The translations under genes and the position numbers were made by a program. Shown piece by piece: positions 20,270-24,940 of a stretch of DNA of 64,000 nt. Each line of letters begins with the position of its first letter. Within the stretch, counting starts at the first letter, position 1. The notes under the pieces are model-generated. The model was given only the letters and a program-made list of their open reading frames with translations. It had not been told where the DNA came from and made no database searches. Source of the stretch: Saprospiraceae bacterium (GTDB lineage Bacteria > Bacteroidota > Bacteroidia > Chitinophagales > Saprospiraceae). The stretch is taken from the NCBI GenBank assembly GCA_029262995.1, contig JAJCYH010000020.1, positions 1 through 64,000 of the forward strand, written 5' to 3'.

Positions 20270-20353
20270 GCCAAAGTGGTGGAATTGGTAGACACGCTGG
20301 ACTCAAAATCCAGTGCTAGCAATAGCGTGTGGGTTCGAGTCCCACCTTTGGTA
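20270..20353 (+). tRNA. tRNA-Leu(CAA)
   Basis: An 84-base class II tRNA. The acceptor arm GCCAAAG pairs with CTTTGGT (one G-U at the first pair). The anticodon stem CTGGA/TCCAG frames the loop CTCAAAA with anticodon CAA. A long variable arm follows (TGCTAGCAATAGCGT region), then the T-arm GTGGG TTCGAGT CCCAC and discriminator A. CCA is not encoded. It decodes UUG. Its last 16 bases recur downstream in the repeat array. Confidence 0.96.
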
Positions 20354-20361
20354 CAAAGGTT

Positions 20362-20393
20362 AAAAAAGGCAGCATGAAAGTGTTGCCTTTTTT
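20362..20393 (+). terminator. Rho-independent terminator after tRNA-Leu
   Basis: AAAAAAGGCAGCA (20362-20374) pairs with TGTTGCCTTTTTT (20381-20393), with one G-U pair and a 6-base loop, then runs into more T. The right half of this terminator is retained in every downstream repeat unit. Confidence 0.85.
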
Positions 20394-20841
20394 TTGATTC
20401 GGAGAATCAAAGGGACGAGAAGTCTATCCCAGATATTGCGGAGCAATTATCGGGAAGTCCCACCTTTGGTATAGTGAAGGACTATCGCCTTCACTATAGG
20501 CACTCCCAAGTTGTAAAGTGAAAGTGTTGCCTTTTTCTGTTTCGAAGAAACAAAAGGACGAGAAGTTTATCCACGATATTGCGGAGCAATTATCGGGAAG
20601 TCCCACCTTTGGTATAGTGAAGGACTATCGCCTTCACTACAGGCACTCCCAAGTTGTAAAGTGAAAGTGTTGCCTTTTTCTGTTTCGAAGAAACAAAAGG
20701 ACGAGAAGTCTATCCCAGATATTGCGGAGCAATTATCGGGAAGTCCCACCTTTGGTATAGTGAAGGACTATCGCCTTCACTACAGGCACTCCCAAGTTGT
20801 AAAGTGAAAATGTTGCCTTTTTTTGTTTCGAAGAAGCAGTT

Positions 20842-20864
20842 GTTTGAAGTTGCAAACTTCAAAC
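20842..20864. repeat. GTTTGAAGTT palindrome, copy 1
   Basis: Arms GTTTGAAGTT and AACTTCAAAC pair perfectly over 10 bp around GCA. It is followed by AAACACTTTTTGGAACCGAA, which accompanies most copies of this palindrome. Confidence 0.85.
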
Positions 20865-21002
20865 AAACACTTTTTGGAACCGAAGTAATTATCGGGAAGG
20901 GAAGTCCCACCTTTGGTATAGTGAAGGACTATCGCCTTCACTACAGGCACTCCAAAGTTGTAAAGTGAAAATGTTGCCTTTTTTTGTTTCGAAGAAACAG
21001 TA

Positions 21003-21025
21003 GTTTGAAGTTGCAAACTTCAAAC
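21003..21025. repeat. GTTTGAAGTT palindrome, copy 2
   Basis: Identical 10-bp arms and GCA loop as the copy at 20842, 161 bases further on, again followed by the CTTTTTGGAACCGAA tail. It ends the main array. Confidence 0.85.
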
Positions 21026-21133
21026 AAACACTTTTTGGAACCGAAACTTTGAAGTTTGAATACCAATGATTTCAATCGGAAGGACTGGCACCATTTGGAG
21101 AGGAATATACACAAACTCAGATACGTACATAAT

Positions 21134-22270
21134 TTAGAATTGTTTTACATAATCACTAAACATAAATATCCTATTTCGATTTTTTCCTGTTAACTCAATT
21201 AAAATTTTAAACTCAATAAAGTCCTTAACTAATGAGTTTGAAGCGTTATAGCTTAATCCTGTAATCTTAGCAACTTGATTTACATTGACAATAGGCTTTT
21301 TTAGTAACTGTTGAAATAAGATCATTGCGCTTTGACTTTTCCTTCCAAATTCTTTATTTATTGTTTTTTCAATGGAATCTTTCAATTTAAGAATATTAGA
21401 TAAAGTTTGTGATGCCTTATCGGCTGTTTGTTCAATACCAACTAAAAAATACTTAATCCATTGTTTTAGATCATTTTTAGTCCTTACAAATGTTAGGTTA
21501 TCATAGTAAAGTCCTTTGTTCATTTCAAAGTATACAGAAAGATATAATAATGGTTTTGACAAGATCTTTTTATCTACTAAAAATAGTGTTATTAGTAACC
21601 TACCTATTCTTCCATTTCCATCCAAAAATGGATGAATAGTTTCAAATTGATAATGTGCTATTGCAATTTTTATTAAGTCAGGCACTTTTATATCCTCGTT
21701 ATGAATAAAGTTTTCTAAGTCACTCATTAGCTCATTAACATGACTTTGATGGGGAGGTATAAATGTTGCATCACTTAAACTATTCCCACCTATCCAGTTT
21801 TGACTTGTTCTGAATTCACCTGGTTGCTTATGTTCACCTCTTACACTATCTAACAGTATCCTATGAGTATCCCTCAACAGTCTAGATGAAATAGGAAAGT
21901 CACTTAATTGTTCAATAGCATTGTTTAATGATTTTATATAGTTGTTAACCTCTTTCCAGTCATTTATTCTTTCAGGGGAAATCTCGTCTTCATCCATTAG
22001 TGCCTCATCTATTTCGGTTTGAGTACCTTCAATTCTACTTGATATTACTGCTTCTTTTGTTATATGTAATTGAATAAATAAATCAATATTTGGTACAAGT
22101 CTTGAGAAAGAGTTTAGCTCTCCAAGTTTAATTGCAGCTTTCTCAAGAAGCAAACTTATTTGAGGATCATCCCATTTCCAGACTTTGTTCACTTTTGTTG
22201 GAAGGAAATAACTATATCCATAAGTCGTTTTGTGAAACTGACCTGAAATGAATTTTTCTATTTGTATCAT
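21134..22270 (-). CDS. Fic-family AMPylase with inhibitory helix and C-terminal winged helix
   Basis: A 378-residue protein. An N-terminal Fic_N region contains an inhibitory motif SSRIEG (77-82, with E81 as the blocking glutamate). The Fic core carries the full motif HPFLDGNGRIGR (213-224), catalytic H213. A C-terminal winged-helix-like domain follows (about 300-375). Intact motifs predict transfer of AMP to a target hydroxyl, normally held off by E81. No separate antitoxin is needed in this class. It sits inside the tRNA-Leu repeat-bounded segment, with a 12-bp palindrome upstream that may be its operator. Confidence 0.92.
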   Translation of the reverse strand: MIQIEKFISGQFHKTTYGYSYFLPTKVNKVWKWDDPQISLLLEKAAIKLGELNSFSRLVPNIDLFIQLHITKEAVISSRIEGTQTEIDEALMDEDEISPERINDWKEVNNYIKSLNNAIEQLSDFPISSRLLRDTHRILLDSVRGEHKQPGEFRTSQNWIGGNSLSDATFIPPHQSHVNELMSDLENFIHNEDIKVPDLIKIAIAHYQFETIHPFLDGNGRIGRLLITLFLVDKKILSKPLLYLSVYFEMNKGLYYDNLTFVRTKNDLKQWIKYFLVGIEQTADKASQTLSNILKLKDSIEKTINKEFGRKSQSAMILFQQLLKKPIVNVNQVAKITGLSYNASNSLVKDFIEFKILIELTGKNRNRIFMFSDYVKQF

Positions 22271-22331
22271 TTGAATTAGCTTGATTTAGTTATTTTGCTT
22301 TGATGAAGCAAAGGTACTGTATGTTTTATTA

Positions 22332-22361
22332 TATCTCAACTTAATGGAATAAGTTGAGATA
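22332..22361. promoter_or_regulatory. 12-bp palindrome upstream of fic (candidate operator)
   Basis: TATCTCAACTTA (22332-22343) and TAAGTTGAGATA (22350-22361) are perfect inverted repeats with a 6-base spacer. They lie 62-91 bases before the Fic ATG. A further half-site CTCAACTT occurs at 22374-22381. The spacing suits a dimeric winged-helix or HTH protein, and the Fic protein itself carries a winged-helix-like domain. Confidence 0.6.
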
Positions 22362-22554
22362 AGAGAAACTATAACTCAACTTCTATTACATTAATTATAG
22401 TGACATAGAATAAGTGAAGAACTATTTGATCTAGTTAAAGAATGATTATATATTAATTGTAACAAGAGTATTTTAACATAATTGATTATGTTTCGACTTG
22501 AAAAGAAATTCAATTCTTAAAGAATTAAAAAGCACCTAATTCCGGATTATCAAA

Positions 22555-22675
22555 AGTCCCACCGATGTTTGAAGTTTGCAACTTCAAACAGACATAGTTT
22601 GAAACTTCAAACAAACATTTTTTGGAACCGAACTTTGAAGTTTGAAACTTTAATGACTACCGCCTTCACTGATAA
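22555..22675. repeat. Degenerate copy of the tRNA-end / palindrome repeat
   Basis: It begins AGTCCCACC (tRNA-end fragment), then the palindrome GTTTGAAGTT-TGC-AACTTCAAAC (22567-22589) and a shorter one (22597-22612). The TTTTTGGAACCGAACTTTG tail and a remnant of the CCTTCACT hairpin arm follow. Same modules as the main array, with parts missing. Confidence 0.7.
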
Positions 22676-22725
22676 GAGAATTTGAAAATTATTTGGGTAT
22701 TTAATATAAAAAATTTGGTAATGCT

Positions 22726-23010
22726 TTGAATAATGCATTGATTCTGACTGGAGGAGACGAAACTGGAATTAATTCTATTAGTTTAGAGAATATTACACAT
22801 CCTAAGTATAACCTATTGTCTGATGTTGCAACAGGATTAAAAATTCTAACTAATGATACGGAACAAACTCAAGTGTATATAGATTCCTATACCTTTGATG
22901 AAAATACTGGCGAATGGGAAGCTGCAATAACATTAAAAATAACTGATCACTTTGGATTAGGAAACGATGACTTAGAAAAATTTAGATGGATTTATGGCTT
23001 TAATGTTTAA
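22726..23010 (+). pseudogene. Fragment of a DUF3289-like C-terminal (toxin-type) domain
   Basis: A 94-codon frame starting only at TTG. The segment GLKILTNDTEQTQVYIDSY and the later ITDHFGLGNDDLEKF resemble the DUF3289-type domain found at the C-termini of large secreted or polymorphic-toxin proteins. After LEKF the family normally continues into FRAWF.LQH; here it is replaced by RWIYGFNV and a stop, and the 5' part of the gene is missing. Read as a broken cassette remnant. Confidence 0.5.
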
Positions 23011-23154
23011 TGCACCATAACCTGTTTCAGTATAACCTAAGTTTGTATCAAATTTCGATAATTGAATACCAGTAGAAAAATTAACATTTATCTGAGCTAT
23101 ACTATTTAAATGAATAATAAATAATAAAAGCAATACTAATGAGAATCTAATCAT
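22972..23154 (-). pseudogene. Truncated secreted beta-protein gene
   Basis: From the ATG at 23154 the frame gives a good signal peptide (MIRFSLVLLLLFIIHLNSIA) and then QINVNFSTGIQLSKFDTNLG, typical of the first strands of an outer-membrane barrel. It stops after about 60 residues. Its 3' end runs into the opposite-strand DUF3289-like fragment, so both genes appear broken at one junction near 22980-23010. Confidence 0.45.
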
Positions 23155-23376
23155 ATTATTTTTATAAGGAAACAATTCTAATTCATCAAATAAATAAACA
23201 TTAATCTATCAGTTAATTATAAATACCTTTTGAATATTTATTCTCGTATTATCAATATTAGAGAAATTAACTATGAAGTGATTTAAAAACATATTATTAA
23301 AAGTAATAATATAAAAAAGTTTGTAGATTTAGAAATCTGAGGATGAAACCAAAGAATAACTAAATACTACAAACAA

Positions 23377-23872
23377 ATGTGTAAGTGTAAAATTAACAAT
23401 TTCTTTGTTCAATATATTGAATTAGCGAGAACAGGGAGAAAAATAAGCGTACCACTTTGGCGAATCGTTAAGGCAATCTTGTATAAATTGAAAACGGGTG
23501 TACAGTGGAAACACTTACCCATGCGACAGTTTTTTGGATTCACTAAATACAGCTGGGAATCAGTGTATTATCATTTTAACAAATGGTCTCAGACTGGAGT
23601 TTGGGCGCAATGTTATAGAAGGCTAATTGTTGATAATAGATCAAAGCTAGATATGTCGTTAGTTAATTTAGATGGAACCCATACACCAGCAATACGGTAA
23701 CAAGAGCGGTTATGTGTATAAAATGAAAGGAAAAAATTTGTATATTTCTCCAGATATAGATATTCACAATAGTAAAGGTGTCTGGAAGACCGCGAGGAGA
23801 ATTAAAGACTTAGGTATTCCAAAGAAAAGGATAGGAACATTTAGCGAAAATTTCGAATATGTTAGAAAATGA
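23377..23872 (+). pseudogene. Frameshifted, truncated IS5-type transposase
   Basis: The first frame (23377-23700) has the N-terminal DUF4096-like domain of IS5-group transposases, including WRIVKAILYKLKTGVQWKHL and the start of the catalytic core LDGTHTPA. A frameshift at about 23695 moves the sequence into the next frame (to 23872), which continues GNKSGYVYKMKGKN. The rest of the DDE core is absent or unrecognisable. The element is dead on its own. Confidence 0.75.
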
Positions 23873-24242
23873 GAATATAATTTTTATTGAGCAGTTAAAT
23901 GATGTGATGCAAAAAGAAGGTGAGCTTTGTGATTGTATAGCAAATGAGTCTTATTTCGATATTGATAAATTCAATACTTACAATCAACTTATTTTCAAAT
24001 TATCTAATTTGAACCTAGAAATAGAACAAAGGTATTGTATAGTCATCAGGATTTGGGAAATTAATTACATTATCAAAGGCTTAATATTACGACATTGTAA
24101 TGAGAAAGATTATTTCAAAATATCTAATTTGAAAGATAATATAATTGCACGTATTAGCGAGGTATTGTATTATACGGCTAATTGGTATTCTTATAAAAGA
24201 GAAATGAACGAAAAACATTTATCAATTGAAAAGGGGAGCTAA
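23859..24242 (+). CDS. Small unknown protein
   Basis: A 127-residue, mostly helical, soluble protein (MLENENIIFIEQLNDVMQKE at the start). There is no recognised family. It overlaps the end of the broken transposase frame by 14 bases. In this position, beside a toxin-domain fragment, an immunity-type role is possible but nothing in the sequence proves it. Confidence 0.5.
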   Translation: MLENENIIFIEQLNDVMQKEGELCDCIANESYFDIDKFNTYNQLIFKLSNLNLEIEQRYCIVIRIWEINYIIKGLILRHCNEKDYFKISNLKDNIIARISEVLYYTANWYSYKREMNEKHLSIEKGS

Positions 24243-24642
24243 TTTTCAATGTCTATAATAAATCTCAGAAGATTATAATAGATCTTTATGCTCTCCATTT
24301 GTCCCTTGACTAGTTCTAAATTATTGATAATCAGGATGAATTATGTTCCCACCTTTGGTATAGTGAAGGACTACCGCCTTCACTACAGGCACATTAATTA
24401 GTAATACTAAATGTTGCCTTTTTTTTGTTTCGAAGAAACAGTTGTTTGAAGTTTGAAACTTCAAACAAACACTTTTTGGAACCGAACTTTGAAGTTTGAA
24501 ACTTTAAGGACTACAGCCTTCACTATGCCTTAGTAGTAACTTTGAAACTTCAAACATACATATTGATCACGATTTATCTAACTTGTAATTATTCTTGTGG
24601 TTATAGAATGATTATTTCTAAAATTCTAACTTAAAAAATACG
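24243..24642. other. Intergenic region holding the distal repeat copy
   Basis: The 400 bases contain no convincing gene. The interval 24347-24560 is a copy of the tRNA-end repeat (listed separately); the rest is AT-rich and featureless. Confidence 0.6.
24347..24560. repeat. Distal copy of the tRNA-Leu-end repeat
   Basis: It starts TCCCACCTTTGGTA (24347-24360), identical to the last 14 bases of the tRNA. It continues with the TAGTGAAGG / CCTTCACTA hairpin (centre base change TAC for TAT), the GTTGCCTTTTTT run, TTTCGAAGAAA and the palindrome GTTTGAAGTT-TGA-AACTTCAAAC (24444-24466). The CTTTTTGGAACCGAA tail and a second, degraded hairpin follow. It closes the segment that begins at the tRNA about 4 kb upstream. 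Confidence 0.85.
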
Positions 24643-24852
24643 GTGATGAAAAAATTGATGATAAGCCTGAAAATTATTATTTCTCTACTTTTGAGTAGTT
24701 ACCTCTTGATTTATGCATTAATTTTTTCATTAACAGGAATGACGATGGAGTCAATAACATGGGTGTATTTACTGTTTGGATTAATATTTGGTTATATCTC
24801 CTTTAGGAATGCAAGATTTCTTGAATATAATTACGCTGAAATAGTTAAATAA
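24643..24852 (+). CDS. Small two-helix membrane protein, unknown
   Basis: A 69-residue protein with two hydrophobic segments (about 8-30 and 39-55) and a basic start (MMKKLMISLK). No family recognised. Alone, just after the repeat-bounded segment. Confidence 0.5.
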   Translation: MMKKLMISLKIIISLLLSSYLLIYALIFSLTGMTMESITWVYLLFGLIFGYISFRNARFLEYNYAEIVK

Positions 24853-24940
24853 AGATTATTTAAGAAATTTAACAAAATAGAAAGTATTCCATTAAGTTAT
24901 AGGGTATTGTACCTTATGTTTATTGAATTTAAACAGTGAA

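Follow-up and report, generated by a model that had tools for sequence, protein, structure and literature searches.

The window examined here, a stretch of 64,000 nucleotides of a Saprospiraceae bacterium (contig JAJCYH010000020.1, positions 1 to 64,000, forward strand), carries a tandem array behind its tRNA-Leu(CAA) gene in which the 3' end of that gene, its tail, is repeated. On balance we favour, with a little more than even confidence, the view that an rtT-like tail-copy hairpin element, termed E in the following, makes up the array and was amplified here as units of tail, spacer and E. The tail (AGTCCCACCTTTGGTA) occurs exactly in the tRNA itself and in tail copies 2 to 5, at spacings of 118, 143, 143 and 161 bp, and with 2 mismatches in a distant unit (Table 1). 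These 6 matches compare with 0.03 expected in shuffled sequence, i.e. the array of 16-base repeats claimed in the initial annotation is real, and Tandem Repeats Finder describes it as 4.2 copies of a 143-bp unit with 89% matches. The first three joints have the composition of E, namely GGACGAGAAGYYTRTCC, an inner hairpin, a single A and a tail copy that begins in the T-loop at A58/N59, and GAGAA lies directly 3' of the flank at 20417, 20560 and 20703. Also as described initially, the right half of the tRNA's terminator (TGAAAGTGTTGCCTTTTT), a hairpin (TATAGTGAAGG..CCTTCACTA) and TTTCGAAGAAA recur in the units, TTTCGAAGAAA being replaced by TTTCGAAGAAG in the third one. The additional block that every unit was said to contain (GCGGAGCAATTATCGGG) is complete before tail copies 2, 3 and 4, whereas only its 3' end (TAATTATCGGGAAGG) precedes tail copy 5, where another palindrome is found. 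This palindromic module F occupies the place of most of the GCGGAGC block, which explains the last interval of 161 bp.

Table 1. Features of the tRNA-Leu(CAA) locus, in coordinates of the window.
Feature	Position	Strand	Basis and remarks
tRNA-Leu(CAA)	20270..20354	+	ARAGORN, Rfam; tail 20338-20353 = repeated sequence
DNA between tRNA-Leu and MTHFR	20355..24922		4.57 kb in the window
Terminator-like hairpin and T run, directly 3' of tRNA-Leu(CAA)	20362..20393	+	Inverted repeat and direct repeat; right half recurs in each unit
Element E, copy 1	20405..20468	+	R1 model, 49.9 bits; motif GGACGAGAAG at 20413, then inner hairpin and joint to the tail copy at 20456
Tail copy 2	20456..20471	+	Exact match
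Unit hairpin TATAGTGAAGG-ACTATCG-CCTTCACTATA	20470..20498	+	Sequence; recurs in each unit
Element E, copy 2	20548..20611	+	R1 model, 46.3 bits; motif at 20556, tail copy at 20599
Tail copy 3	20599..20614	+	Exact match
Element E, copy 3	20691..20754	+	R1 model, 47.2 bits; motif at 20699, tail copy at 20742
Tail copy 4	20742..20757	+	Exact match
Palindromic module F, replacing most of E	20822..20884	+	Further copies at 20983-21060, 22596-22670 and 24424-24561
Tail copy 5	20903..20918	+	Exact match; preceded by a 3' remnant of E only
Distant degenerate unit	24345..24440	+	Tail with 2 mismatches, hairpin, terminator half

The anatomy of E becomes apparent when the joints behind many tRNAs are compared; in order, it comprises the flank, GAGAAG, YYTR, the inner hairpin and a single A, followed by the tail copy. 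In 80 loci picked by at most 3 mismatches over the last 15 bases, which partly selects for identity within the tail but not for its sharp 5' edge, the agreement between tRNA and copy is 0.00 at C56, 0.25 at G57 and 0.96 at A58, remains at 0.90-1.00 to the end of the gene and is at most 0.70 beyond it; the copy is exact in 60 of these loci. The spacer, which often holds a terminator-like hairpin, is duplicated along with the tail in 29 of 75 testable loci, and the unit there is therefore tail-spacer-E. Together with the near-identity of neighbouring units in the window this makes amplification by units, as already proposed, likely. Moreover, the bases preceding GAGAAG are complementary to the tail of the host tRNA itself, with 2.58 Watson-Crick pairs of 4 at positions 5-8 versus 1.28±0.13 (largest value 1.64) for shuffled tails, using one element per distinct tail (53 tails). 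The T-loop base N59 is matched by the flank as well (C-G 36, T-A 5, G-C 3, wobble 3, unpaired 3). In an alignment of 61 sequences, 127 cells show changes on both sides of the stem, as compared to 57±6 after shuffling and 28-58 in slid controls, and the 52 elements found with a covariance model yield 93 versus 30±4 in an alignment fitted to that model, all these statistics being calculated irrespective of phylogeny. Finally, C-GNA-G triloops, which are typical of stable DNA hairpins, are present in 40 of 81 inner hairpins (13.5±3.1 in shuffles), but they also exceed the shuffles in the spacers (12 of 66 versus 5.0±2.3), so that the contrast between inner hairpin and spacer is one of degree.

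These features bear on the idea that no element-specific process is involved and that a polymerase merely stalled at hairpins and slipped between short shared words such as AGTCC. A unit duplication with one fixed joint, a short shared word at that joint and hairpin-rich units would fit passive template switching of this kind, but the same GAGAAGYYTRTCC element is found at the joint across distant genomes and the flanks change in step with tails that deviate from GTCC (T-A and G-C at N59), which renders it very unlikely. The related suggestion that a single tRNA-terminator module slipped by chance is not supported, the GCGGAGCAATTATC block being part of a conserved element that recurs 3' of numerous tRNAs and in numerous genomes.

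The genome of the window (G000) illustrates this. When the full 143-bp unit was searched against 40 genomes, as the initial annotation had proposed, only this genome was matched, and the array was not matched by any plasmid either. The terminal 43 bases of the unit, by contrast, recur on a different contig behind tRNA-Leu(GAG). In the stretches 3' of 32 tRNAs (up to 1.5 kb each, shorter at contig ends) tail copies follow Leu-CAA, Leu-GAG, Ala-GGC, Arg-TCT, Arg-CCT (three) and Gln, and at five of these six tRNAs, Arg-TCT being the exception, GGASGAGAAGYYTRTCC and a hairpin, i.e. E, precede a tail copy. Each of the 9 exact E motifs in this genome sits behind a tRNA, and two near motifs (1-2 mismatches) sit behind tRNA-Met with decayed tails; together they belong to six different tRNAs, each motif being followed by the tail of its own tRNA or a decayed copy of it. 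Seven additional hits with 2 mismatches equal the number obtained with the reversed pattern (seven). Within a single genome, inner hairpins at different tRNAs can be alike, with values of 0.85 for Leu-GAG and Leu-CAA in G000 and 0.76 for Gln and Arg in G058. A different arrangement is seen behind tRNA-Val(TAC) of G000 (contig C26, 289556-290100; L092), where two repeats of about 220 bp end in the acceptor part of the tail only and lack E, but contain the palindrome of module F (TTTGAAGTTT..AAACTTCAAAC). Three contigs of the assembly, C30, C32 and C23, start 84-143 bases 3' of a tRNA end (Ala, Lys and Glu, respectively). As the edge of C30 falls within a unit of the tRNA-Ala array, some arrays are probably unresolved in this assembly, and one might suspect false copies in the window, too. 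Neighbouring units there differ by substitutions, however, and one by length, and independent genomes have the same layout; we thus consider an assembly artefact scarcely credible.

E is not confined to this genome. The exact motif is present in 16 of 199 genomes of the family, with 33 matches versus 6 for the reversed pattern, and a scan of public genomes returned at least 130 exact matches in at least 119 stretches. Among the 130 matches listed, 88 have a tRNA on the same strand within 700 bp upstream, 16 fall in coding sequence, 9 are no more than 150 bp away from an edge of their stretch and 17 are without a tRNA detected by ARAGORN; 6 of these 17 have a tRNA end directly upstream, 1 has a matching tRNA-Cys 1.5 kb away and 10 have none. 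Stretches combining E with a tail copy come, among the matches listed, mostly from Bacteroidota, and the record titles also name Chlorobiota (L151), Neomarinimicrobiota (L203, L208) and Patescibacteria groups (L158, L167, L169). In viral contigs the motif was found in 25 stretches, none of which has an upstream tRNA. A structure search with the covariance model R1, restricted to Bacteroidota genomes of at least 90% completeness and using strict filters that may miss weak elements, identified E in 23 of 296 genomes, that of the window included; within the genus, E is present in 3 of 14 genomes. Its 52 distinct hits in the loci examined comprise 44 with a tRNA or transfer-messenger RNA (tmRNA) gene within 900 bp upstream, 5 with a tRNA end or tail and 3 without either.

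The hosts are diverse. In the 92 motif-found loci with tail copies, E lies mostly 5-90 bp from the tRNA, and the hosts span 13 amino-acid types; a tmRNA gene also serves as host (L342). In genome G417 E is located within the spacer between tRNA-Ile and tRNA-Ala at three places. We take this tRNA pair to mark rRNA operons, which was borne out at the one of the three places that was tested, where the order is 16S, tRNA-Ile, E, tRNA-Ala, 23S, i.e. E lies inside an rRNA operon. In Flavobacteria E is found between tRNA-Thr and tRNA-Tyr, and the Arg element of G058, a genome of the same family (L140), is identical in reading to that of Saprospiraceae bacterium DHS20C18 (L153). Two further arrangements were noticed: a tRNA-Trp followed by at least 4 E units that repeat every 72 bp and include three with equal scores (L327, 1810-2138), and a tRNA-Asn (L330; G453, C1, 518500-523500) followed by larger partial tRNA copies (anticodon arm through tail), each with E behind it.

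The closest known system is the RtT RNA of E. coli (Rfam RF00391), i.e. the 178-bp repeats behind tRNA-Tyr (tyrT), which have long been regarded as a curiosity. The RtT repeats contain tandem 18-nt tail copies that start from N59 behind the tRNA, a boundary shared with E. The plan of the repeats at tyrV of E. coli K-12 is likewise that of E, with GGGGAAGGAT, GAGAAG, a structured insert, GAGTA and then ATCCTTCCCC plus the remaining tail, and the tyrT-tyrV spacer holds a variant of the repeat. As in E, the Rfam model pairs the same two arms, flank and tail, and has GAGAA after the first one. Thus, E and RtT have in common a flank that pairs with the tail of the preceding tRNA, GAGAA after that flank and tandem tail repeats behind the tRNA, although the GAGAA is partly circular as the elements were partly found by that motif. 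The insert of RtT, in contrast, is longer and has a different core (CGTTGC..GCAACG, CCCGAAGGG). RF00391 has no match in the window and none at E≤1 in the genome or in five E loci, so that E stays below the Rfam gathering cut-off; a low-threshold Rfam scan of these five loci returned nothing at E, model R1 has no match in tyrT, and among 14 control genomes the RtT model matched E. coli alone. By analogy E is an element that works like RtT, whereas formal membership of RF00391 fails.

Copy number varies in the RtT arrays, too. In 34 strain rows that cover narI and both tRNA-Tyr genes (among 50 listed), the annotated RtT copies number 4 (9 rows), 3 (8 rows), 2 (6 rows), 1 (10 rows) or 0 (1 row), and for Salmonella Paratyphi A a published table contains a 175-bp rtT difference between two strains (PMC2658671). 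In E. coli K-12 (nine regions, 43 tRNAs) exact 18-nt tail copies from N59 were also observed behind all 6 tRNA-Lys and 3 of 4 tRNA-Arg(ACG) genes (L358, L360, L362). They share their core with RtT, and each flank pairs marginally better with its own tail than with others (9 of 10 pairs versus 7-8), but unlike E they lack GAGAA after the flank and are single copies rather than arrays.

The analogy with RtT also gives rise to the main rival, an RNA role of E as for RtT. The anti-tail:tail hairpin would act in tRNA transcripts, e.g. in 3' processing, in competition for the acceptor strand or in the release of a small RNA, and would be kept by selection, the arrays being by-products. RtT, a catalogued RNA with the same plan, is by analogy a precedent for the structured RNAs that the initial annotation considered possible for such an array; E inside an rRNA operon and between tRNA-Thr and tRNA-Tyr lies where transcription is expected; and in 14 of 17 tRNA-Thr loci the tail copy matches its own tRNA despite three tail variants. 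We nevertheless rate this role as rather improbable because most genomes are without E, a terminator-like hairpin separates tRNA and E in many loci, and the triloops favoured by the inner hairpins are of the kind found in DNA hairpins.

Serial integration at a tRNA attachment site had been offered as another origin of the array, and E could then be the conserved attachment-site arm of islands that were mostly stripped of their genes after T-loop-type site-specific integration. The start of the repeat at the T-loop, with an identity block that runs from there to the gene end as in T-loop-type islands, agrees with this proposal, the T-loop being a known kind of tRNA attachment site (PMC3146451). 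The Dehalococcoides ssrA islands described there resemble E in insertion point, in their series of tail repeats and in a conserved motif beside each repeat, but they carry integration genes, which E lacks, and E is found at many tRNA types. No integrase or mobile gene recurs beside E: when the open reading frames (ORFs) at 91 loci were compared, the clusters listed comprised genes commonly found next to tRNAs, and no integrase, recombinase or transposase recurred among them. The exception, recognised by eye, is L217 (1-3430), a possible island using the site, with two tyrosine-recombinase-like ORFs located 5' of an E that is linked to a tRNA-Gln-like tail. Foreign-looking genes in the window interval may also be counted in favour of integration remnants, but the usual distance between tRNA and E leaves no room for genes, and complementarity of flank and tail would be unexpected for arm sites; altogether we regard this origin as unlikely.

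Mobilisation by a RAYT or IS200 transposase was considered as well, prompted by the hairpin and the GGAC/GTCC pairing, and was rejected, as the genome has a single Y1 transposase, which looks IS200-like by eye and has no E adjoining it. Neither a repeat-flanked transposase nor dispersed extragenic copies, both properties of repetitive extragenic palindromic (REP) elements and their RAYTs, were found, the 9 exact and 2 near motifs examined all being located behind tRNAs. GTAG- and CGTC-tagged REPs resemble E in being small palindromes of mobile character, and the CGTC-tagged ones occur in Bacteroidetes without a dedicated transposase; however, they are dispersed and extragenic, with no tRNA tail mentioned in the sections of PMC3733652 at hand, whereas E is tied to genes with a T-arm, and we judge the two to be different things (PMC3733652).

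The history of the locus can be traced in eight relatives. A divergently oriented TolC gene is retained upstream of tRNA-Leu(CAA) in 7 of them, and in 4 MTHFR follows the tRNA after 92, 177, 236 or 435 bp, i.e. these are near-empty sites; three have no MTHFR within the stretch examined. A fifth relative (L016) has the same TolC and MTHFR genes on either side of an inverted tRNA and is thus not counted as an empty site. One of the four short-interval relatives, G004, carries just one E, whose tail has decayed, and the Gln and Leu-GAG elements are common to G000 and G010, so that at these tRNAs E may predate the array, which was probably amplified in the genome of the window. The segment from the array to MTHFR (21134-24242) contains a Fic-family gene (21134-22270, minus strand) and ORFs or fragments matching DUF3289, the IS4/5 transposase DUF4096 and Ntox21, genes that look like a store of the toxin/immunity type.

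Based on these findings, among them the patchy occurrence of E in the phylum and the genus, the near-empty sites in relatives and the similar inner hairpins at different tRNAs of one genome, we propose that E reaches new T-arm genes by entering at the boundary of T-loop and tail and that entry would duplicate the tail, leaving the host tRNA intact. The anti-tail:tail stem may guide entry or, alternatively, may hide the extra tail from tRNA folding. Slippage or unequal exchange involving whole tail-spacer-E units would then let arrays expand and contract. In the window three E units are arranged in tandem, later units having been modified by another palindrome and by gene insertions. Read-through transcripts may yield small structured RNAs, as suggested by E. 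coli RtT. Several observations weigh against this proposal. No direct movement of E was observed, and the neighbourhood comparison and the lone Y1 transposase point to no mobilising enzyme. Duplication of the spacer is undetectable in 46 of the 75 testable loci. In the window's own copies the stem of flank and tail has only 4-5 uninterrupted pairs, RNA folding is modestly better than for shuffles (z -2.0, -1.4 and -1.7) and the best fold of the third copy is without the outer stem. Element likeness is 0.54 between different tRNAs of one genome (n=13), 0.62 between the same tRNA type in different genomes (n=257) and 0.47 for other pairs. Since 0.62 exceeds 0.54, inheritance in place appears to be common and jumping rare or old, and likeness within a genome, tried as a demonstration of jumping, lends it weak support only.

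More broadly, E might form one widespread class of tiny mobile hairpins together with the RtT-like repeats known from E. coli. In this class base pairing of the flank with the conserved T-arm strand would guide entry into any tRNA or tmRNA gene at A58/N59, the tail would be duplicated so that the host gene survives, and some enzyme would move the element, which would then be a parasite of the most conserved RNA genes, an extension that we put forward tentatively and consider possible rather than probable. A literature search covering few subscription papers returned no title on such elements in Bacteroidota, which is weak evidence of novelty.

Taken together, our results suggest a widespread, little-recognised genetic element rather than a local oddity. 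In Bacteroidota the RtT-like layout is now seen behind many tRNA types, behind a tmRNA and within an rRNA operon; it also appears in records from some other phyla and at the Lys, Arg and Tyr genes of E. coli. This would turn the tyrT repeats from an anecdote into a class that has a laboratory model, a covariation signature and a defined anatomy, and the origin of tail-copy hairpins, their movement and their effect on tRNA expression become testable.
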